From NCBI RefSeq assembly GCF_016862975.1, contig NZ_BONZ01000027.1, positions 1-64,000 on the forward strand: DNA of 64,000 nucleotides, written 5' to 3'. Source of the DNA: Rugosimonospora africana (GTDB lineage: Bacteria; Actinomycetota; Actinomycetes; Mycobacteriales; Micromonosporaceae). The stretch's first letter is position 1, and each line of letters opens with the position of its first letter. The notes under the pieces were generated by a model. The model searched no databases, was not told the origin of the DNA, and saw nothing but the letters and a program-made list of their open reading frames with translations. Positions 44,785 to 57,152 of this stretch are shown one piece after another. Made by a program: the position numbers and the translations under genes.

Positions 44785-44861
44785 GAAAACCACTCTAGAT
44801 CGCCGCAACGGACAGGCACGCTGGCGCGTGTTCCAGGCGGCCGGTTCGCGGGGGAGGGCGT

Positions 44862-45359
44862 TTGTCAGGGAGCTTCGATGACTTCTATGCCGCGCACTTC
44901 GGTCCGCTCGTCGTGCAGTTGCACGCCGGGACCGGTGATCTGGCCGAGGCGCAGGACGTGGTACAGGAGGCGTTCTGCCGTGCGTGGGGGCGGTGGGACC
45001 GGTTGACGGGCTACGACGACCCGGCGGCCTGGGTACGCCGGGTGGCCTGGAACCTGGCGATCAGCAGGTGGCGGCGGGCCCGTACCGCGTTGCGGTTCGT
45101 CGCGCGGCAGCGCGTCGAGACCGTGGCCGGGCCGAGCCCCGACCGGGTCGCGCTGACCGCCGCGCTGGACCGGCTGCCGGTCAAGCAACGCCGGGCGGTG
45201 GCGCTGTTCTACCTGGCCGACCTGACCACCGGCGAGATAGCCCAGGACTGCGGCGTGCCGGAGAGCACGGTGCGATCGTGGCTGCACCGGGCGCGCGCGG
45301 CGCTGCTCAAGGACCTGAGCGACCCTGTTGAGGAGGTGCGGCGTGGATCCGTTGGATGA
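44862..45359 (+). CDS. ECF RNA polymerase sigma factor (SigE/SigJ-like), copy 1
   Basis: A 165-residue sigma-70 family protein with region 2 (about 5-70: AQDVVQEAFCRAWGRWDRL) and region 4 (about 105-155: LDRLPVKQRRAVALFYLADLTTGEIAQDCGVPESTVRSWLHRARAAL). The best start is TTG 44862, with GGGGAGG four bases upstream. Its 3' end overlaps the next gene by 17 nt, so the two are coupled. The partner is in the usual anti-sigma position. A second, paralogous pair lies at 53261-54950. Confidence 0.88.
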   Translation: MSGSFDDFYAAHFGPLVVQLHAGTGDLAEAQDVVQEAFCRAWGRWDRLTGYDDPAAWVRRVAWNLAISRWRRARTALRFVARQRVETVAGPSPDRVALTAALDRLPVKQRRAVALFYLADLTTGEIAQDCGVPESTVRSWLHRARAALLKDLSDPVEEVRRGSVG

Positions 45360-46683
45360 CAGCGACGACACCGTGCTGCGCGAGCACTTCGCGGCTCTGC
45401 GGACCGAGACGCTGTCGCGGGCACGGCCGGCCGGTGCGCTTGCCGCCCGCCGCGCGTACGCCAACCGTCACCGGCGGCGCCTGCTGGTCACGGCCGCCGC
45501 GGCCACGGTACTCGTCGTGCTCGGCGCGACCGGCGGTTACCTGCTGGAGGACCGGCCGGCCACCCACCAGGACGTGACCGCCGCGCACACCAGTACGGCG
45601 ACACCAGCCGACCGGGTGGGTCAGGGCGCCGGCCCGACCCGCGGGCCGACCGCCGCCGAATCCGTACCCGTCGTCACGCCGCCCGCGCCGAGCAGCCCGG
45701 CCGGCGGACCGGTCCCGCCCGGATTCCGGGTCGAGTCCATCACGTTCATCAGCCCGAACGTCTCCTGGGTACTGGGCTACGCGCCGTGCCTGTCCGAGCG
45801 GCCGTGGAGCGAGTGCCCGGCGGTGCTGCACAGCAGGGACGGCGGCCGTACCTGGGTCGGCGGTCCGGCACCGGGCGACGCCGCGTTCACCGGGGACATC
45901 CGGTTCGCCAACTCCCATGACGGTTGGATCGTGGCACGCGCCCCGTTGTTGGCGGAGGATCCCGGCGGAGTGTCCGGCGTGCTGTACGCGACGCACGACG
46001 GCGGCACCACCTGGCACACGGTGACCTCGGTGCCGGCCGCCGCGACCGTCGAGGCGGCATCCGGCCGGGTGTGGGTGGCCACCGGTCCGCATTCCGGCGA
46101 CTCGCACACCCTCTGGTCGGCGGCCACCGGCAGCGACTCGTTCTCGAAGGTGGCGGAGCCGGCCGGTACCGGGCTGGTCCTGCACGGCGACCACGTCTAC
46201 GCGTACGGCGAGGGCAACGACCTGCTGGCCGTCGACGACGGCACGGTCAGCCGGCGCAGCCTGCCGTGTGCCGAGGGCTACCAGGCCGGGTCCGTCCTCG
46301 CCGCGGCCGATGACCTGAGCCTGGCCGTGGTGTGCGCCGGCCCGCCCGACGGCTCCCAGTCCGCCAAGCAGGGCTTCACCTCGACCGACGGCGGCGTGAC
46401 CTGGACGCCGATGGCCGGTGCTCCGGATCCGGCCGGCTCCGTCACGTCACTGGCCTCGACGCGGGACGCGGTGTTCCTCGCCGGCCAGGAGATGCCGGTA
46501 CGGGTCAGCCGCGACGGCGGGCAGACCTGGTCGGTGGCGCTGAAGCCCGACGGGCCCGACGGGTTCTCCTACGTCGGCTTCACGGACGCGGATCACGGCA
46601 TCGCACTCACCTATCAATCATCGACAGTAATCTATTTAACCTCCGACGCGGGACGGACTTGGAAGCCGCACCGGTTCGACTGA
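45343..46683 (+). CDS. Membrane-anchored BNR/Asp-box beta-propeller protein in anti-sigma position, copy 1
   Basis: A 446-residue protein: cytosolic head of about 46 residues (MDPLDDSDDTVLREHFAALR), one transmembrane helix (about 47-68), a Pro/Thr-rich spacer, then a beta-propeller from about 128 with repeated Asp boxes (SRDGGRTW, THDGGTTW, STDGGVTW, SRDGGQTW, TSDAGRTW). GTG 45343 follows AGGAGG. Being co-translated with an ECF sigma factor, the short head could bind sigma while the propeller senses an extracellular cue; that is inference, since no known anti-sigma motif (such as HxxxCxxC) is present. Asp-box propellers otherwise occur in sialidases and Ycf48. Confidence 0.8.
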   Translation: MDPLDDSDDTVLREHFAALRTETLSRARPAGALAARRAYANRHRRRLLVTAAAATVLVVLGATGGYLLEDRPATHQDVTAAHTSTATPADRVGQGAGPTRGPTAAESVPVVTPPAPSSPAGGPVPPGFRVESITFISPNVSWVLGYAPCLSERPWSECPAVLHSRDGGRTWVGGPAPGDAAFTGDIRFANSHDGWIVARAPLLAEDPGGVSGVLYATHDGGTTWHTVTSVPAAATVEAASGRVWVATGPHSGDSHTLWSAATGSDSFSKVAEPAGTGLVLHGDHVYAYGEGNDLLAVDDGTVSRRSLPCAEGYQAGSVLAAADDLSLAVVCAGPPDGSQSAKQGFTSTDGGVTWTPMAGAPDPAGSVTSLASTRDAVFLAGQEMPVRVSRDGGQTWSVALKPDGPDGFSYVGFTDADHGIALTYQSSTVIYLTSDAGRTWKPHRFD

Positions 46684-46946: not shown

Positions 46947-46988
46947 ATGGCTTCCATCCACGTGCCGTCAGAATTGCTCGTCCAATGA
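46947..46988 (+). CDS. Predicted 13-codon leader peptide coupled to the DUF1906 gene
   Basis: ATG 46947, with GGAGG five bases upstream, encodes MASIHVPSELLVQ and ends in TGA 46986-46988, which overlaps the ATG of the next gene as ATGA. The downstream gene has no ribosome site of its own, so it probably depends on re-initiation after this minicistron. The peptide has no runs of a single amino acid as in classic attenuators. Confidence 0.5.
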   Translation: MASIHVPSELLVQ

Positions 46989-48466
46989 CACGCTTGGGGA
47001 TCGATTATTCGTTCAGTCATCCGAGTCCCCACACGATCCGGTCCACCGGCTACACGTTCGTGTGCCGGTACCTCAGCCGTAATCCGGCCAAGAACCTGAC
47101 CGCGGACGAGGCCAATCAACTCATCAACGCCGGCCTGCACGTCGTGTGCAACTGGGAGGCCGCGGCCAGCGCCGCGCTCAACGGATTCTCGCAGGGCGTG
47201 ACCGACGCGCAGCAGGCGCAGAGCCAGGCGGTCGCCTGCGGCATGCCGCCCACCAGACCGATCTACTTCAGCGTCGACTTCGACGCCTCGGCCGCGCAGC
47301 AGCCGGCGATCAACGCGTACTTCGACGGGGTCGCGTCCGTGCTGGGCCTGTCCCGGTGTGGCGCCTACGCCGGGTACCACGTGATCCAGCGGCTGTTCAA
47401 CGCCGGCAAGATCGTCTGGGGTTGGCAGACGTACGCGTGGTCCTCCGGGCACTGGGACACCCGCGCGCACCTGCGCCAGGTGCAGAACGGCATCACCGTC
47501 GGCGGTGCCGAGTGCGACGCCAACGAGGCACGGGTGGCCGACTTCGGCCAATGGGGCAGGCTCCTGCCGATCAAGCTCGGCCTCGCGTACGACCGCTGGC
47601 TGGTGCGCACCGGCGACGGCCACATCCGCGCGTACGTGCACAACACCAACAACTCGATGTCGAGCGTGGACCCGTCCGGCGCCGGCTGGTCGCCCATGGG
47701 CGGCAACATCGGAGGCACGCCGGCCGCGGTCATCGACTCCGCCGGCCACGTGCAGATCTACGTCCGCGGTGCCGACAACTCGCTCCAGCACGTGGACCCG
47801 GCCGGCGCCGGCTGGTCGTCGATGGGCGGCAACATCGCCGGCGATCCGTGCGCTGTCCTCGACCGCGCCGGCCACGTGCAGATCTACGTCCGCGGCGCGG
47901 ACAGCTCCCTGCAGCACGTGGATCCGTCGGGTGCGGGCTGGTCGTCGATGGGTGGCCAGATCGCCGGCAACCCGGCGGCCATCGTGGACTCCGCCGGCAA
48001 CATCCAGATCTACGCGCGGGCGGGCAGCGCGCTGTGGCACGTGGATCCGTCGGGTGCGGGCTGGTCGTCGATGGGCGGCAGCATCGCCAGCGACCCGGCG
48101 GTGGTGCTGGACTCCGCCGGGCACCTCCAGATCTACGTACGGGGCCGGGACAACTCGTTGCAGCACGTGGATCCGTCCGGAGCCGGTTGGTCCTCGATGG
48201 GTGGCCAGGTCGCCGGGAGCCCGACAGCGGTGGTCGACCCGGACGGGCACACGCAGATCTACACGCGCGCCGCGAACGCGCTGTGGCACGTGGATCCGGC
48301 CGGCGCCGGCTGGGAGTCGTTGCGGGGTGACATCGCCGGCGACCCGGTCGCGCTGGTGGACGAGATCGGCAACGTCCAGGTCTACGTGCGCGGCACCGAC
48401 AACACGCTGCAGCGCGAGCTGTCCGGCACCAACTGGTCGGGACTCGGCGGAAGCATCGTCAACTAA
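46985..48466 (+). CDS. DUF1906 (Rv2525c-like glycoside-hydrolase-like) domain fused to a seven-repeat PLL/tectonin-like propeller
   Basis: A 493-residue protein. Residues 1-200 form a DUF1906 TIM-barrel-like domain (LGIDYSFSHPSPHTIRSTGYTFVCRYLS; YFSVDFDASAAQQ), related to Rv2525c and GH25 muramidases. From about 205 seven repeats of about 42 residues follow, each ending with AGWSSMGG or a variant, the last NWSGLGG: a predicted seven-bladed lectin-like propeller. No signal peptide is seen, unusual for a cell-wall-directed enzyme; Rv2525c is itself Tat-exported. The blades are nearly identical in DNA, pointing to recent amplification. Start ATG 46985 is coupled to a leader ORF. It converges with the GntR gene, overlapping by 8 bp. 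Confidence 0.85.
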   Translation: MTRLGIDYSFSHPSPHTIRSTGYTFVCRYLSRNPAKNLTADEANQLINAGLHVVCNWEAAASAALNGFSQGVTDAQQAQSQAVACGMPPTRPIYFSVDFDASAAQQPAINAYFDGVASVLGLSRCGAYAGYHVIQRLFNAGKIVWGWQTYAWSSGHWDTRAHLRQVQNGITVGGAECDANEARVADFGQWGRLLPIKLGLAYDRWLVRTGDGHIRAYVHNTNNSMSSVDPSGAGWSPMGGNIGGTPAAVIDSAGHVQIYVRGADNSLQHVDPAGAGWSSMGGNIAGDPCAVLDRAGHVQIYVRGADSSLQHVDPSGAGWSSMGGQIAGNPAAIVDSAGNIQIYARAGSALWHVDPSGAGWSSMGGSIASDPAVVLDSAGHLQIYVRGRDNSLQHVDPSGAGWSSMGGQVAGSPTAVVDPDGHTQIYTRAANALWHVDPAGAGWESLRGDIAGDPVALVDEIGNVQVYVRGTDNTLQRELSGTNWSGLGGSIVN

Positions 48467-49947: not shown

Positions 49948-52038
49948 TCAGAACTCGGAGAACTGATAGTCGCGGCGGCGCCGCCGGTTGATCAGGCCAC
50001 GGATGAGGATCCCGATCACCAGGACCCCGCCGCCGGACAGCAGTACCGTGCCGGCCAGCCGCGCGGGCGGCATCGACCCGACACCGGTGCTCGCGCCGGC
50101 GGCCTTGATGCCCTTCGTCTTCAACGGCATCGGCCCGAGGGTCAGGGTCGGCAGCGGCGAGGCGGTGTCCTGCGGGGCTCCGGTGGCGACCAGCCCGCCG
50201 GCCGGGGCGAGGGTGTTGGTGTTCCCGGCCGGTACCACGGCCGGTGCCGCCTGGACGCCGGTGTTGCTCCCGCCGCCCGTGCTGCCCCCGCCGTGGGTCG
50301 CCGTGCTCCCACCGCCGGTGCTCCCGCCGTGGGCCGTCGTGCTCCCGCCGCCGGTGCTCCCGCCGCCGGTGCTTCCACCGCCCGAGGTTCCGCTCCCTCC
50401 GGTTCCGCCGCCGGCCGCGTGCGTCGGCGGCTTGGCGGCCGCCGTGGTGGGCGGGGCCTTCGTCGGAGCCGTGGTCGGAGCCTTGGTCGGAGCCTTCGTC
50501 GGTGCGTTGGTCGTCGGAGCCACTGTCGGCGGCTTGGTCGGCCCGGTGGTCGGGGCCTTCGTCGGTCCCTGGCTCGCGGTCGGTGCGGTGCTCGCCGGAG
50601 CGCTGCCGGTCGGCGAACCCGCCGGTGCGCTCGGGCTCTGCGTCGGCCGGGTGCTGGCCGTCGGAGCCGCCGATGCGGTCGGCGACGCCGACGGCATGGT
50701 CACCGGCTTCAGCCGCGCGCTGACCACCACACCGTCGTCGTTCGTGGTCACCGTGATCGGGTTGTCGATGCCGAGCAGATCGCCGCAGTTGAGTTCGTCG
50801 AAGCTCCCGCTCAGCCGCTGGGCGAGGAAGGTGAACAGGTTGTTCGCCGCACCCGCGTCCGGTGAGGCCGCCTTGAGCGTCGACTTCCGGTCCAGGTTGG
50901 TCCGGTCGATGCCGAGGGACATGATGTTCTGGCAGTACGCCTTCGGTGTCTCGGTGGCGGTGTCGATCGGGCCCATGTTCACCCCGGCCCGGTACAGGTT
51001 GGTCTTGCGGACGCTGGTCTTGCCGTCCACCAGCACCATCGGGTCACTCGTCGGCACCAGGGCCACCGGAGCGGCCTGGAACGCCGCGGCCTGCAACTCG
51101 TTCAGCGGCAGCGCGGGTGCCGACTTGCCCGGGTCGGCGAGATCCGGCGCCGTGTACGGCGTGCAGCCCAGCACCGGCGCCACGTAGCTGTCCAGCAGCC
51201 CGTTGTCGCTGCCGTTCGTCTCCACCTTGGCGCCCTTGGCAGCCAGCGCGGCCTGGTTCGTCGCGGTGTTCTGCGCGATGCTGCCGTCCGGCAGGAACAG
51301 GTAGCTGGTGGTGACGTTGTCGCTCTGGTCCATGTCGACGATGCCGAAGTCGCGGGTCGTCGGGCAGGGCAGGCCGTCGTTCGCGGTACCCAGCGGGGGA
51401 ACCGTGGTCTTGCCCGCCGCGATCGCGGCGTTGGCGGCCGTGAAGAACGCCGGTGCGTTGCAGTAGGCGTACTGGCCGAAGATCGAGTCACCGAGCCCGT
51501 TGACGCACGAGCCCGACTGGAGGCTGCCGTCGCTGTCGGCCAGGGTCAGGTTGTCGCCGTTGAAGCCGAACCAGACGCCCACGACGGCGTCGGCGGGCAG
51601 CTTCGGTACGACCGGCGGCGCGGCCGGCGCGTCGTTCCCGTCGACCACGACCGGGCTGTACACCGAGATGGCTCCGGTGGCCGGGTCGATGACGGCCGCC
51701 TGGACGAACGCGGACGTGCCGTCGTCGGACTGGTGGCAGGACGGGGTGAGCAGCCGGTACGGGGTGGCCAGACCCTGCGCGGTGAGTGGGTTGGCCGGCA
51801 CCTGCAGGGTGCAGTCCACCGCCGGTGGGTCTTCGGTGTTCGAGGCCGCGAGAGCGATGCCGCCACCGGTGGCGAACAGCACGCCGACGACGGCGATGAG
51901 CGGAACGGTCCAGCGCCGGGGTGCCGGTGGTGGGGGGACGCGGCGGCGCTGGCGGTTGCGGCGGGTGGTACGCCGCTGCGGGTTCAGACTCGACACGAAG
52001 TCGACGATGTCCGCGTCGTTGCGTTCGTGGGCAGACAA
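49948..52038 (-). CDS. Large surface protein with N- and C-terminal membrane anchors and mucin-like stalk
   Basis: A 696-residue protein I cannot assign to a characterised family. N-terminal 42 residues are basic and cytosolic, then a helix (about 43-64); residues about 70-450 form a Cys-containing extracytoplasmic domain (CTLQVPANPLTAQGL ... DELNCGDLLGIDNP). Next come a Pro/Thr/Ala stalk with TKAPTT-type repeats and a GGGST-rich stretch (to about 610), a second helix (about 660-683) and the tail RRRRRDYQFSEF. There is no LPXTG sorting motif, so it looks tethered at both ends. The start is TTG 52038, giving MSAHERNDADIVDF. Its position between a hydrolase operon and a phosphoesterase gives no function. 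Confidence 0.75.
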   Translation of the reverse strand: MSAHERNDADIVDFVSSLNPQRRTTRRNRQRRRVPPPPAPRRWTVPLIAVVGVLFATGGGIALAASNTEDPPAVDCTLQVPANPLTAQGLATPYRLLTPSCHQSDDGTSAFVQAAVIDPATGAISVYSPVVVDGNDAPAAPPVVPKLPADAVVGVWFGFNGDNLTLADSDGSLQSGSCVNGLGDSIFGQYAYCNAPAFFTAANAAIAAGKTTVPPLGTANDGLPCPTTRDFGIVDMDQSDNVTTSYLFLPDGSIAQNTATNQAALAAKGAKVETNGSDNGLLDSYVAPVLGCTPYTAPDLADPGKSAPALPLNELQAAAFQAAPVALVPTSDPMVLVDGKTSVRKTNLYRAGVNMGPIDTATETPKAYCQNIMSLGIDRTNLDRKSTLKAASPDAGAANNLFTFLAQRLSGSFDELNCGDLLGIDNPITVTTNDDGVVVSARLKPVTMPSASPTASAAPTASTRPTQSPSAPAGSPTGSAPASTAPTASQGPTKAPTTGPTKPPTVAPTTNAPTKAPTKAPTTAPTKAPPTTAAAKPPTHAAGGGTGGSGTSGGGSTGGGSTGGGSTTAHGGSTGGGSTATHGGGSTGGGSNTGVQAAPAVVPAGNTNTLAPAGGLVATGAPQDTASPLPTLTLGPMPLKTKGIKAAGASTGVGSMPPARLAGTVLLSGGGVLVIGILIRGLINRRRRRDYQFSEF

Positions 52039-52332: not shown

Positions 52333-53202
52333 GTGGTGGGCGACCCGTCCGGCAAGGTGTTCGCTATCAGCGATATCCACGTGGCGTACCCGGAGAATCG
52401 ACGGATCGTCGAACAACTCGCGCCGGAATCGCCTGGGGACTGGCTGTTGCTGGCCGGGGATGTGGGCGAGACATTCGCCGATATCGAATGGGCGCTACGC
52501 CTGTTGAGTGAACGGTTCGCCACCGTGATCTGGACACCCGGTAACCACGAATTGTGGACGCCGCGACCGGATCCGGTACAGCTCCGCGGCGAATTCCGGT
52601 ACCGGCGACTGGTCGAGGTGTGCCGGGAACTCGGCGTCCTCACGCCCGAGGATCCGTACCCGGTCTGGCGCGGCGAGGGCGGCCCGGTGACCATCGCGCC
52701 GCTGTTCCTGCTCTACGACTACACGTTCCGGCCGGACGGGTACCCGACCCGGGAGGCGGCGCTGGCCCGGGCGTACGAGGTCGGCGTCGTGTGCACCGAC
52801 GAGTTCCTGCTGCATCCCGACCCGTACCCGAGCCGGCAGGCGTGGTGCGCTCAGCGCGTCGCGGTCACCGAACAACTGCTCGCCGCGCGGGATCCGGCCC
52901 TGCCCACCGTGCTGGTCAACCACTTCCCGCTGATCCGGGAACCGACCCGGGTGCTGCGGTACCCGGAGTTCGCGCAGTGGTGCGGCACGGAGCGCACCGA
53001 CGACTGGCACGTACGGTTCGGTGCGGTCACGGTCGTCTACGGTCACCTGCACATCCCGCGCACGATCTGGCGCGACGGCGTGCCGTTCGAGGAAGTCTCC
53101 CTCGGCTACCCGCGGGAGTGGCGGCCGCGCTCCGGCGCTCCGGGACGGCTCAGGCAGATCCTGCCGTCGCCGGAAAGTCGCGGCAACCTTCCACCGGGCT
53201 GA
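52333..53202 (+). CDS. Metallophosphoesterase
   Basis: A 289-residue calcineurin-like phosphoesterase with all metal motifs: DIH (FAISDIHVAYPENR), GDVGE, GNHELW, NHFPL and GHLHIPR. It should hydrolyse phosphomonoesters or diesters with a dinuclear metal site; the substrate is unknown. In streptomycetes such genes often stand next to phosphopantetheinyl transferases, but here none adjoins. GTG 52333 (or GTG 52336) is the start, seemingly on a leaderless transcript. The sigma-factor pair follows 58 bp downstream on the same strand. Confidence 0.88.
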   Translation: MVGDPSGKVFAISDIHVAYPENRRIVEQLAPESPGDWLLLAGDVGETFADIEWALRLLSERFATVIWTPGNHELWTPRPDPVQLRGEFRYRRLVEVCRELGVLTPEDPYPVWRGEGGPVTIAPLFLLYDYTFRPDGYPTREAALARAYEVGVVCTDEFLLHPDPYPSRQAWCAQRVAVTEQLLAARDPALPTVLVNHFPLIREPTRVLRYPEFAQWCGTERTDDWHVRFGAVTVVYGHLHIPRTIWRDGVPFEEVSLGYPREWRPRSGAPGRLRQILPSPESRGNLPPG

Positions 53203-53260
53203 GGCGTCGTCTCCCTGACGTGGACGAGCGCCGCAATGGCGCCGATCGATGGGAGATTGG

Positions 53261-53770
53261 GTGGACACCGGTTGGGAGGAGGTGTACGCCGGCCATTACA
53301 GCCGGCTGGTCGCCTTGCTCACGGCGCTCGCCGGTTCCAGGGCCGAGGCCGAGGAAGCCGTGCAGGAGGCTTTCGTGCGGGCGCTGGGCATGAGCGGCCG
53401 GCGTGCCGTCGTCGAGGACCCGGAGGCGTGGCTCTACCGGGTCGCGGTCAACCTGCTGCGGTCGCGGTGGCGGCGGGTGCTTGCCGGGCGCCGGGCCGTG
53501 GCGCGGCTGTCCGCCCCGGACGAGGTGGTCACCGAGGACTCGGGGCGGGTCGACGACCGCGTGCGGTTGCTCGGCGCGCTGCGCCGGCTGCCCTTCGAGC
53601 AACGTGAGGCGATCGCCCTGCACTACCTGGCCGACATGCCCGTCGAGGCGGTGGCGGTACGCGTGGGGTCGCCGATCGGCACGGTCAAGGCGCGGCTGTC
53701 CCGCGGCCGCAACGCACTGGCCCGGCTGCTCGGCGAAGCGCCGGTGGGGGGAGGAAGCCGTCATGCCTGA
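53261..53770 (+). CDS. ECF RNA polymerase sigma factor, copy 2
   Basis: A 169-residue ECF sigma with region 2 (EEAVQEAFVRALGM) and region 4 (LRRLPFEQREAIALHYLADMPVEAVAVRVGSPIGTVKARLSRGRNALARLL, in pieces). I prefer GTG 53261 with GGGAGA five bases upstream to ATG 53249, which has no ribosome site. It is paralogous to the sigma at 44862 and, like it, overlaps (by 8 nt) a membrane-anchored Asp-box propeller gene. Confidence 0.88.
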   Translation: MDTGWEEVYAGHYSRLVALLTALAGSRAEAEEAVQEAFVRALGMSGRRAVVEDPEAWLYRVAVNLLRSRWRRVLAGRRAVARLSAPDEVVTEDSGRVDDRVRLLGALRRLPFEQREAIALHYLADMPVEAVAVRVGSPIGTVKARLSRGRNALARLLGEAPVGGGSRHA

Positions 53771-54950
53771 GCTGGACTTCGCGGGGCTGCGCGACGAACT
53801 CGAACAGCAACTGCGCCCACCCGCGTTCGCCGAGATCCGGTCGCGCCGGCGGCGCCGTACCCGCTGGATCGCGGTCGGTACGGCCCTCATGCTGGTCCTG
53901 GTGCTCGCCGGCGCGGCCTCCGCCAACACGTACCTGCGACCGGTCCGCTCCCCGGTCACCGGCCCGGGACCGTCGGCTAGCCCGGTGTCGCTCGGTCCCG
54001 GAGTCGCCGCGGTGGCGGTCTCGCCGTCCGGCACCATGTTCCTGGCTTCGTCGTCGTGCCTGTTCGGCTGCGCCCGGCCGGACGACCGTTTCGGCGACGT
54101 GGTGTGGCGCAGCACCGACTCCGGCTCAACCTGGACCCGGCTGGCATCCCCGCAGGACTCCTACGCCGGAACGTTGCTGGCGGTCAGCGACACCCAGCTG
54201 TGGCTCGTCGACGACGTGACGATCAGCGCGGCCTCCGACGGTGGTCACAATTGGCAGAGCCTCAGTCTCGGCGGCGACTCCACCGCGTCCGCGTACGCGG
54301 CGACCACCGGGGGATCAGTCTGGCTCGTTCAGAACGGTGCCGTCGCGATGTCGCAGCGGGGCGCGAACGTGGACCTGCCGCAGGCCCAGCCGCCCGGCCG
54401 CGCGGATTCGCACGGGATCGCGGTGTTCGGCGAGGACAGCGCCGCGGTGCTGACCGGACACTCGCCGGCCACCTGGTTCGTCACGAACGACCGGGGTGCG
54501 CACTGGGCGCCGATGGCCGACCCGTGCCACGACACCCTGTACCCCGGCTCGCCGTACTCCACGATGACGGCGGCCCCGGACGGCAGCCGCTGGGTGGTCT
54601 GCGCCGGCGCGCCCGCGGCCGGACAGCAGGGCAAGCAGTTGGTCACCTCGACCGACGGCGGCCGTACCTGGCAGTCCCGCGGCCCGCTGGAGCCGGCCGG
54701 GTACGCCACCCGGGTCGTCCCGATCTCGGCGACCGTCGCCTGGCGCAGCGGTCCCGGGGGCGAGATCTACCGCACCACCGACGCGGTGCACTGGACCCCG
54801 GTCGCGAACACCGGCGCTCGGCCCGGGGAAGTCGCCGACATGTTCGCGGCCCGCGACGCGGACACCGCCGTGTACCTGCGGGACACCGGGGTGTACGTCA
54901 CCCACGACGGCGGGCTCCACTGGACCGCGCACCGGTTCCCCTCCGGCTGA
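53763..54950 (+). CDS. Membrane-anchored BNR/Asp-box beta-propeller protein in anti-sigma position, copy 2
   Basis: A 395-residue protein with the same plan as 45343-46683: cytosolic head (MPELDFAGLRDELEQQLRPPAFAEIRSRRR), one transmembrane helix (about 36-55), short spacer, then a propeller with Asp boxes STDSGSTW, ASDGGHNW, STDGGRTW, THDGGLHW. ATG 53763 has GGGGAGGAAG upstream and overlaps the sigma gene. The heads of the two copies share an acidic start and a basic pre-membrane stretch. Role as sensor/anti-sigma is inference. A strong hairpin 9 bp after the stop ends the transcript. Confidence 0.8.
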   Translation: MPELDFAGLRDELEQQLRPPAFAEIRSRRRRRTRWIAVGTALMLVLVLAGAASANTYLRPVRSPVTGPGPSASPVSLGPGVAAVAVSPSGTMFLASSSCLFGCARPDDRFGDVVWRSTDSGSTWTRLASPQDSYAGTLLAVSDTQLWLVDDVTISAASDGGHNWQSLSLGGDSTASAYAATTGGSVWLVQNGAVAMSQRGANVDLPQAQPPGRADSHGIAVFGEDSAAVLTGHSPATWFVTNDRGAHWAPMADPCHDTLYPGSPYSTMTAAPDGSRWVVCAGAPAAGQQGKQLVTSTDGGRTWQSRGPLEPAGYATRVVPISATVAWRSGPGGEIYRTTDAVHWTPVANTGARPGEVADMFAARDADTAVYLRDTGVYVTHDGGLHWTAHRFPSG

Positions 54951-55313: not shown

Positions 55314-57152
55314 ATGAGATTCGTTCCGTTACGCGCGGCCGGCCGCTCGCGCCTGCGCCGAGCGACGATCGTCGCCTCGGCGCTGGTGCTGGGCTCCGGG
55401 ATGGCCGTCGTCGCGGCCACCCAGGCCAGCGCGGCGACCGGCTGTTCGGTCAACTACCAGGTCACCAACCAGTGGCCGGGTGGGTTCGGGGCCAGCATCG
55501 CCATCACCAACCTCGGCGACCCGATCAGCAGCTGGACGCTGAAGTGGACCTGGCCCAGCGGCCAGACCGTCCAGTCGGGTTGGAGTGGCAACTTCAGCCA
55601 GAGCGGCAGCACGGAGACAGTCACCAGCCTGTCGTACAACGGCAACATCGCCACCGGGGCCACGGTGTCCGGCATCGGCTTCAACGGCAGCTGGACCGGC
55701 TCCAACACGAACCCGACGAGCTTCACGCTCAACGGTGTGACGTGTAACGGCAGCGTCGGCTCCTCGCCGACCCCGACGCGTACCACGGCCTCGCCGACCC
55801 CGACGCGCACGACGGCCTCGCCGACCCCGACGCGTACCACCACGTCCCCGACCCCGACGTCCACCGGCTCGCCGTGCACCACCAACTGCCCGGCGCACGT
55901 GGACAACCCGTACGCCGGCGCCAAGGGGTACGTGAACCCCGAGTGGCAGGCCGAGGCCAACGCGGAGTCGGGTGGCAGCCGGGTGTCCAACAACCCGACC
56001 GGTGTCTGGCTTGACCGCATCGCCGCCATCGCCGGCGCCAACGGCGCCATGGGCCTGCGGGCGCACCTCGACCAGGCGCTCGCCGAGCGCAGTGGCAGCA
56101 CCCCGGAGTACATCCAGTTCGTCATCTACGACCTGCCCGGCCGTGACTGCGCCGCGCTGGCCTCGAACGGCGAGCTGGGTCCGAACGACATCGGCCGGTA
56201 CGAGTCGGAGTACATCGACCCGATCGCCGCGATCATGTCCGACTCGAAGTACTCCAGCCTGCGCATCATCAACATCATCGAGATCGACTCGCTGCCGAAC
56301 CTGGTGACCAACACCAACGGCACGGCCGGCGCCACCGACATGTGCAACACGATGCTGCAGAACGGCAACTACGTGAAGGGCATCCAGTACGCCCTGAACA
56401 AGCTGCACGCCATCTCGAACGCGTACAACTACATCGACGCCGGACACCACGCGTGGCTCGGCTGGGACAGCAACTTCGGCCCCGCCGCCGACCTGTTCGC
56501 GTCCACCGCGCGCGGCACCACGGCCGGCATGGCCAGCGTCGACGGCTTCATCACGGACACCGCGAACTACTCGGCGCTCCAGGAGCCGTACTTCAACATC
56601 AACTCCACGGTGGGCGGCCAGTCGGTACGGCAGTCGACCTGGGTGGACTGGAACAACTACGTGGACGAGCTGTCGTTCGCGCAGGCGTTCCGCACCAAGC
56701 TGGTGTCCGAGGGCTTCTCCTCCGGCCTCGGCATGCTCATCGACACCTCCCGCGACGGGTGGGGCGGCCCGAACCGGCCGACCGCCGCGAGCACGTCGAC
56801 CGACATGAACACCTTCGTCAACCAGTCCCGCATCGACAAGCGCATCCACGCCGGCAACTGGTGCAACCAGAGCGGTGCCGGCCTGGGTGAGCGGCCGAGG
56901 GCCAACCCCGGTCCGGCCGGGATCGACGCGTACGTCTGGATCAAGCCGCCGGGTGAGTCCGACGGTTCCAGCTCGGCGATCTCGAACGACGAGGGCAAGG
57001 GCTTCGACCGGATGTGCGACCCGACCTACGGCGGCAACGCCCGTAACGGCAACAACATGAGTGGGGCGCTGCCCAACGCGCCGCTGTCCGGACACTGGTT
57101 CTCCGCCCAGTTCCAGCAGCTCATGGCGAATGCGTACCCGCCGTTGTCGTAA
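55314..57152 (+). CDS. Secreted GH6 cellulase (cellobiohydrolase/endoglucanase) with N-terminal CBM2
   Basis: A 612-residue enzyme: signal peptide to about 41 (ATQASAATG), CBM2 (about 43-143: CSVNYQVTNQWPGGFGASIAITNLG), a linker of SPTPTRTTA repeats (about 147-185, encoded by 27-bp DNA repeats from 55764), then the GH6 domain (about 190-612). Predicted catalytic residues are Asp278 (YDLPGRDC) and acid Asp325 (IIEIDSLPNL). Long loops (GRDGW-type DTSRDGWGGPNRP, GERPRANPGPAGIDAYVWIKPPGESDG in two parts) fit a tunnel-forming cellobiohydrolase, releasing cellobiose from non-reducing ends. ATG 55314 has AAGGAG. CebR-type control is likely, shared with the GH12 gene. Confidence 0.95.
   Translation: MRFVPLRAAGRSRLRRATIVASALVLGSGMAVVAATQASAATGCSVNYQVTNQWPGGFGASIAITNLGDPISSWTLKWTWPSGQTVQSGWSGNFSQSGSTETVTSLSYNGNIATGATVSGIGFNGSWTGSNTNPTSFTLNGVTCNGSVGSSPTPTRTTASPTPTRTTASPTPTRTTTSPTPTSTGSPCTTNCPAHVDNPYAGAKGYVNPEWQAEANAESGGSRVSNNPTGVWLDRIAAIAGANGAMGLRAHLDQALAERSGSTPEYIQFVIYDLPGRDCAALASNGELGPNDIGRYESEYIDPIAAIMSDSKYSSLRIINIIEIDSLPNLVTNTNGTAGATDMCNTMLQNGNYVKGIQYALNKLHAISNAYNYIDAGHHAWLGWDSNFGPAADLFASTARGTTAGMASVDGFITDTANYSALQEPYFNINSTVGGQSVRQSTWVDWNNYVDELSFAQAFRTKLVSEGFSSGLGMLIDTSRDGWGGPNRPTAASTSTDMNTFVNQSRIDKRIHAGNWCNQSGAGLGERPRANPGPAGIDAYVWIKPPGESDGSSSAISNDEGKGFDRMCDPTYGGNARNGNNMSGALPNAPLSGHWFSAQFQQLMANAYPPLS
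55764..55859. repeat. 27-bp tandem repeat encoding the GH6 linker
   Basis: Three full units (55764, 55791, 55818) and a partial one encode SPTPTRTTA blocks. Length is a multiple of three, so linker length can vary in frame. Confidence 0.85.

Follow-up and report, generated by a model that had tools for sequence, protein, structure and literature searches.

A conserved sigma factor/membrane partner pair

The ECF sigma factor gene at positions 44862-45359 (+) of the analyzed window (64,000 nucleotides of contig NZ_BONZ01000027.1 of Rugosimonospora africana) and the gene that overlaps its 3' end (together, copy 1) form a real and conserved pair, which is probably a sigma/anti-sigma signalling pair whose second member (the partner) acts as a sensor anti-sigma factor of modular build, its ectodomain being a propeller. 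A broader and more tentative reading is that actinomycete SigE-type ECF factors stand under an uncatalogued two-helix anti-sigma head, a plug-in base for exchangeable ectodomains, with the propeller repeatedly acquired from free envelope propellers.

The sigma factor (165 aa, TTG start; Pfam and NCBIfam matches) contains Sigma70_r2 (PF04542, E 4.8e-12) and Sigma70_r4_2 (PF08281, E 4.7e-18), the combination of regions 2 and 4 only that defines ECF factors. The TIGR02983 SigE-family model matches it over positions 6-159 of 162 with 137.9 bits (E 2.7e-40), a score slightly below the curated cut-off of 141.55 bits that 26 paralogues in the same genome pass, and it is therefore named SigE-family-like here; its homologues in the Micromonosporaceae reach 69% identity. 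The partner gene (45343-46683, +; 446 aa, GTG start) overlaps the sigma gene by 17 nt (45343-45359), which confirms the overlap given in the initial annotation, and a Shine-Dalgarno-like GAGGAGG (45330-45336) lies 6 nt ahead of the GTG at 45343. An alternative start, TTG 45352, would give a 43-residue head and an 8-nt overlap, the commonest length among homologues (70/108). Third-position GC is strongly biased in both genes (0.88 and 0.89). Reading frame, overlap and domain order underlie the proposal that the partner is a sensor anti-sigma factor: a predicted cytosolic head (residues 1-46; 45343-45480, +; profile of homologous heads and AlphaFold2) is followed, after an Arg-rich stretch, by a predicted transmembrane (TM) helix (residues 47-65; 45481-45537, +; hydropathy maximum 1.98) and an extracytoplasmic Asp-box beta-propeller (residues about 130-446; 45730-46680, +; Pfam, PDB profile match and Foldseek). 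Domain order, hydropathy and Pfam support the topology proposed earlier (short head, one TM helix, outer propeller), and the accompanying statement that the partner carries none of the known anti-sigma motifs agrees with the lack of any match to zf-HC2, RskA, RseA or other anti-sigma families in Pfam.

About 300 nt 3' of copy 1, the gene at 46985-48466 encodes a glycoside-hydrolase-like domain similar to Rv2525c (PF08924) with DUF346-type repeats after it, and the window-wide motif scan gave no promoter-motif match between it and copy 1. Further along, a 696-aa frame on the opposite strand (49948-52038, -) is Pro/Thr/Gly-rich, has a membrane helix near either end by eye and gave no Pfam match.

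Conservation of the pairing

Homologues of the copy 1 sigma factor were found at E<=1e-25 in 343 of 354 Micromonosporaceae genomes, and 80 sigma loci were taken from named genomes, a set that partly overlaps the first. Among 109 loci collected by sigma, one was cut by a contig end; at all 108 testable loci a head-TM partner overlaps or adjoins the sigma gene (L064 apparently frameshifted), with an overlap of 8 nt in 70 and of 4 nt in 20. The partner is a conserved neighbour in the same operon, as expected for an anti-sigma factor. As a control, head-plus-TM frames by the same loose definition were sought at the 3' ends of other genes; they adjoin 0 of 32 long window genes and 55 of 408 genes in homologous flanks (13.5%), and such a layout is therefore not generic. 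The notion that the two genes are unrelated and adjacent by chance, for which nothing speaks beyond the missing known motifs, is already refuted by this survey and retains practically no probability, given the 108/108 loci, the overlapping frames, the conserved head motif and the control rates of 0/32 (window) and 13.5% (homologous flanks). The initial annotation had made its proposal depend on a pairing conserved beyond this genome; that pairing was found at every testable locus, and the logic of a sensor anti-sigma factor is supported along with it.

A putative ECF-type promoter, GCAAC-N17-CGTG (44805-44830, +), precedes the sigma start by 31 nt. The survey of promoters that had been suggested for such pairs revealed a shared ECF-type motif, GCAAC-N15-18-CGT, which precedes 44 of 80 non-redundant homologues of the sigma gene, compared with a Markov expectation of 1.3 (maximum 5 in 200) and a rate of 2.1% in same-locus control windows. 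The copy 1 promoter is one of two perfect motif matches within the window; when one mismatch was allowed, the window-wide scan returned matches no more often than chance, and for this reason no regulon is claimed. Autoregulatory ECF promoters are expected to carry AAC in the -35 and CGT in the -10 element, and a motif with both is present and conserved here. The conserved, ECF-like character of the motif suggests, without proving it, that the copy 1 sigma factor is autoregulated.

The cytosolic head

The Arg-rich, 46-residue head of copy 1 carries the motif F-A-A-L-R ... R-P-A-G-A-L-A-A-R followed by RHRRR. It scores 39.8 bits against a profile built on 95 homologous heads from which it was itself excluded, while the best of 820 shuffled heads scores 11.2; the conserved columns are F (95%), two variable positions, [FYL], R (82%), G (87%), R (84%) and R (98%). 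In the broader reading, the head class would have the signature F-x2-[FYL]-R ... P-x-G ... R-x3-R-R, with the TM helix immediately behind it. With the same profile, the head of a second propeller partner in the window (copy 2) scores 14.1 bits and two heads from another family (L238 and L240) score 11.0-11.7 bits, but most other SigE-partner heads of the same genome stay at noise level, so that no claim is made that all heads are related and, for distant heads, membership in one family rests on topology. Searches of Pfam and the PDB returned no relative of the copy 1 head, and no kinship with known anti-sigma domains was detectable by sequence. AlphaFold2 predicts a helix at residues 3-26, a turn at RPAGA and a helix at residues 32-68 for the head and TM helix together (mean pLDDT 85). 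With 46 residues, no Cys, two predicted helices and no Pfam match, the head falls outside the Class I (ASDI) definition, and it is the head, rather than the propeller, that is the least catalogued and more interesting part of the protein.

The propeller ectodomain and its distribution

Behind a Pro/Thr-rich linker, the copy 1 ectodomain has Pfam matches to BNR/Asp-box, PSII_BNR and Sortilin-Vps10 families, with five Asp-boxes counted by eye and a PF02012 (Asp-box/BNR) score of 46.3 bits, above the cut-off of 27 and indicative of a beta-propeller. Its closest solved relatives in a profile comparison with the PDB are Ycf48 (E 3.5e-12) and HCF136 (E 5e-12). Ycf48 also ranked first in a Foldseek search with the full-partner AlphaFold2 model, a poor, low-confidence model (five rows, mean pLDDT 51, pTM 0.48) that serves as support; the predicted propeller rests on the sequence profile, with weak structural support.

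Searched with the copy 1 propeller protein alone, relatives at E<=1e-10 appeared in its own genome only, and an ectodomain-only profile (A2) was then used for the family search, giving matches in 173 of the 354 genomes. At the top-scoring loci, sigma, head, TM helix and propeller are encoded in one operon with 8-nt overlaps, a result that is seeded because three rows of A2 were taken from such operons. The 40 weaker matches include 8 clear sigma-coupled pairs with other heads (L223 is probably another), and the remainder are mostly lipoproteins or secreted propellers. Outside the window, about 35 propeller loci coupled to a sigma gene were collected from the family, two broken or partial loci (L183 and L193) being excluded from the pair count. 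Among 296 genomes drawn evenly from the class, several propeller matches beyond the family have a SigE-type sigma factor upstream, amounting to at least four sigma-propeller loci (heads were read in L238, L239, L240 and L246; a sigma gene lies upstream in L241 and L242). In L238, L239 and L240, which belong to another actinomycete family, the gene after the SigE-type sigma gene encodes a head, a TM helix and an array of propeller repeats long enough for two propellers, in a protein of roughly 730 aa.

Other pairs in the same genome

At the threshold used, two further propellers of the copy 1 kind were found in the scanned genome (11.1 Mb, 219 contigs). Copy 2 comprises an ECF sigma gene of another sigma lineage (53249-53770, +), preceded by a promoter-like GCAAC-N17-CGTC (53183-53208, +) and overlapping by 8 nt a gene for a 395-aa partner (53763-54950, +) with a head of about 35 aa, a TM helix at residues 36-54 and an Asp-box propeller. 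Directly 3' of copy 2, positions 55314-57152 encode a GH6 cellulase with a CBM2 domain, a possible hint at a plant polysaccharide context. The other propeller, on contig 41 (C41; locus L040, 3326-4627), is a predicted lipoprotein (lipobox VTAC|SGS) with no adjoining sigma gene.

SigE-family-like ECF factors number dozens in this genome, and at 30 readable sigma loci besides the window pairs (candidate L049 lies outside these 30) the product of the following gene starts with a short head that ends in an Arg-rich stop before a single TM helix. The heads are mostly 35-50 residues long and the overlap with the sigma gene is usually 4 nt, while the ectodomains include LytR_CpsA_Psr, Germane/Gmad2, FtsX_ECD, BNR and PD40/WD40 domains as well as many without a known match. 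The LytR_CpsA_Psr, FtsX_ECD and Germane/Gmad2 ectodomains carried on short heads of SigE-type partners can be seen in loci L004-L056. Some other ECF genes (e.g., L035 and L044) are followed by classical zinc-type anti-sigma factors, as judged by eye, which indicates that the difference in head type is real.

Exchange of ectodomains and co-divergence of heads

On the sigma tree, the possession of a propeller partner changes state at least seven times, in separate places and in several sigma lineages, and the sigma factors nearest to copy 1 (L087 and L058) have partners of 258-266 aa without a propeller. The ectodomain tree unites copy 1 and copy 2 with the C41 lipoprotein and L207 (support 87) and keeps this group separate from the Micromonospora clade; both trees come from short searches and have long branches. 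Ectodomains have been exchanged among sigma partners, and heads co-diverge with the sigma factor. Across genomes, sigma, head and ectodomain distances all correlate, matching the expectation from species history. Mantel tests within this genome covered 30 paralogous pairs, on which a shared species history cannot act. Among these pairs, sigma distances correlate with head distances (r=0.37, p=0.0002) and hardly with ectodomain distances (r=0.125, p=0.09), and no clear correlation was seen with the TM helix (r=0.065, p=0.19) or with residue-shuffled heads (r=0.04, p=0.26). Physical linkage alone could explain the co-divergence of sigma factor and head, and the ectodomain distances may be saturated.

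These data bear on the suggestion that the propeller protein is an effector in envelope assembly or binding, co-transcribed as a target of the sigma factor, with the head a mere membrane anchor. Free lipoprotein or secreted propellers do occur: this genome has one (C41), the family has many, and Ycf48-type propellers are assembly factors. However, sigma partners conserve the head motif but not the ectodomain, the head motif co-diverges with the sigma factor, the head is retained by partners with unrelated ectodomains, and the C41 lipoprotein has a lipobox instead and no sigma gene alongside, all of which make an effector role improbable. Conserved pairing and co-divergence would be equally expected if the partner, as a positive co-factor or a receptor in the membrane, recruited or activated the sigma factor rather than inhibiting it, and the head resembles no known anti-sigma factor; yet the established ECF membrane partners with such a layout are inhibitors, as is a short-headed TolB-domain partner with a demonstrated function (Tt-TolB; PMC3397946), and activation is considered unlikely.

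Proposed mode of action

For the favored reading of the partner as a sensor anti-sigma factor, we infer a course of events that includes head-sigma binding, inhibition, ligand sensing, release and autoregulation. While the cell is at rest, the cytosolic head with its two helices would bind the sigma factor at the membrane, away from RNA polymerase. Binding of a ligand (perhaps a glycan, a peptide or an envelope protein) by the outer Asp-box propeller would alter or expose the partner, and the sigma factor would be let go through proteolysis or a conformational change, after which it could use the GCAAC-N17-CGTG promoter to transcribe the operon that encodes it, plus other genes.

About 30 such pairs lie in this one genome, and a homologous sigma factor occurs in nearly every Micromonosporaceae genome searched. 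If the head is an inhibitor, its short motif would flag the regulators of many ECF factors without a recognized anti-sigma factor, and the ectodomains (propeller, LytR, FtsX-like or germination-type) would hint at the signal of each pathway. The propeller pairs offer a defined receptor that is open to testing.

Comparison with known systems

Class I (ASDI) anti-sigma factors such as RseA, RsiW, RskA and ChrR resemble the partner in having a gene beside that of the sigma factor, an often membrane-anchored product and a variable sensor (PMC7406223); they differ in their four helices and, in part, an Hx3Cx2C motif, whereas the copy 1 head has about 46 aa and no Cys/zinc motif. The class II factors CnrY and NepR share a very short cytosolic part with two helices, the number predicted for the copy 1 head (PMC4598750, PMC8103513), and CnrY embraces its sigma factor with its two helices (PMC4598750), the hold on sigma2 and sigma4 being what characterizes class II; however, no sequence similarity was detected between this class and the copy 1 head, and the sensor for CnrY is a separate periplasmic protein, CnrX. 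Membrane regulators with interchangeable extracellular sensor domains are also represented by RsgI (SigI) of Clostridium thermocellum and by actinobacterial ECF52/ECF53 (PMC12203970, PMC8999054, PMC10766802), although SigI is another kind of sigma factor and the ECF52/ECF53 regulator is fused to the sigma factor and carries a zinc-finger domain. Ycf48 and HCF136, while the nearest solved structures to the copy 1 ectodomain, are photosystem II assembly factors without sigma factor coupling and in this differ from the partner.

Literature searches, in which the main ECF reclassification was not covered, found no paper on the pairing of an Asp-box propeller with an ECF sigma factor. TolB, too, is a propeller. 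In Thermoanaerobacter tengcongensis, the gene of Tt-TolB (TTE0322) lies 2 bp after the ECF gene of Tt-RpoE1 (TTE0323), and in the protein a TM helix at 39-61 links a 39-residue head to a TolB domain (PMC3397946). Experiments demonstrated that residues 1-39 bind Tt-RpoE1 and that Tt-TolB inhibits transcription, and Tt-RpoE1 transcribes its own gene (PMC3397946). The copy 1 partner shares with Tt-TolB the ECF gene directly ahead, the short head and the single TM helix, but Tt-TolB comes from the Bacillota and has a TolB-annotated ectodomain and a 2-bp gap, whereas copy 1 has an Asp-box/Ycf48-like ectodomain and overlapping genes. This precedent makes the anti-sigma reading likely and removes the claim of a wholly new class. 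The initial proposal of a new class is right only in part, and the propeller is but one among several ectodomains that can be exchanged on a widespread head.
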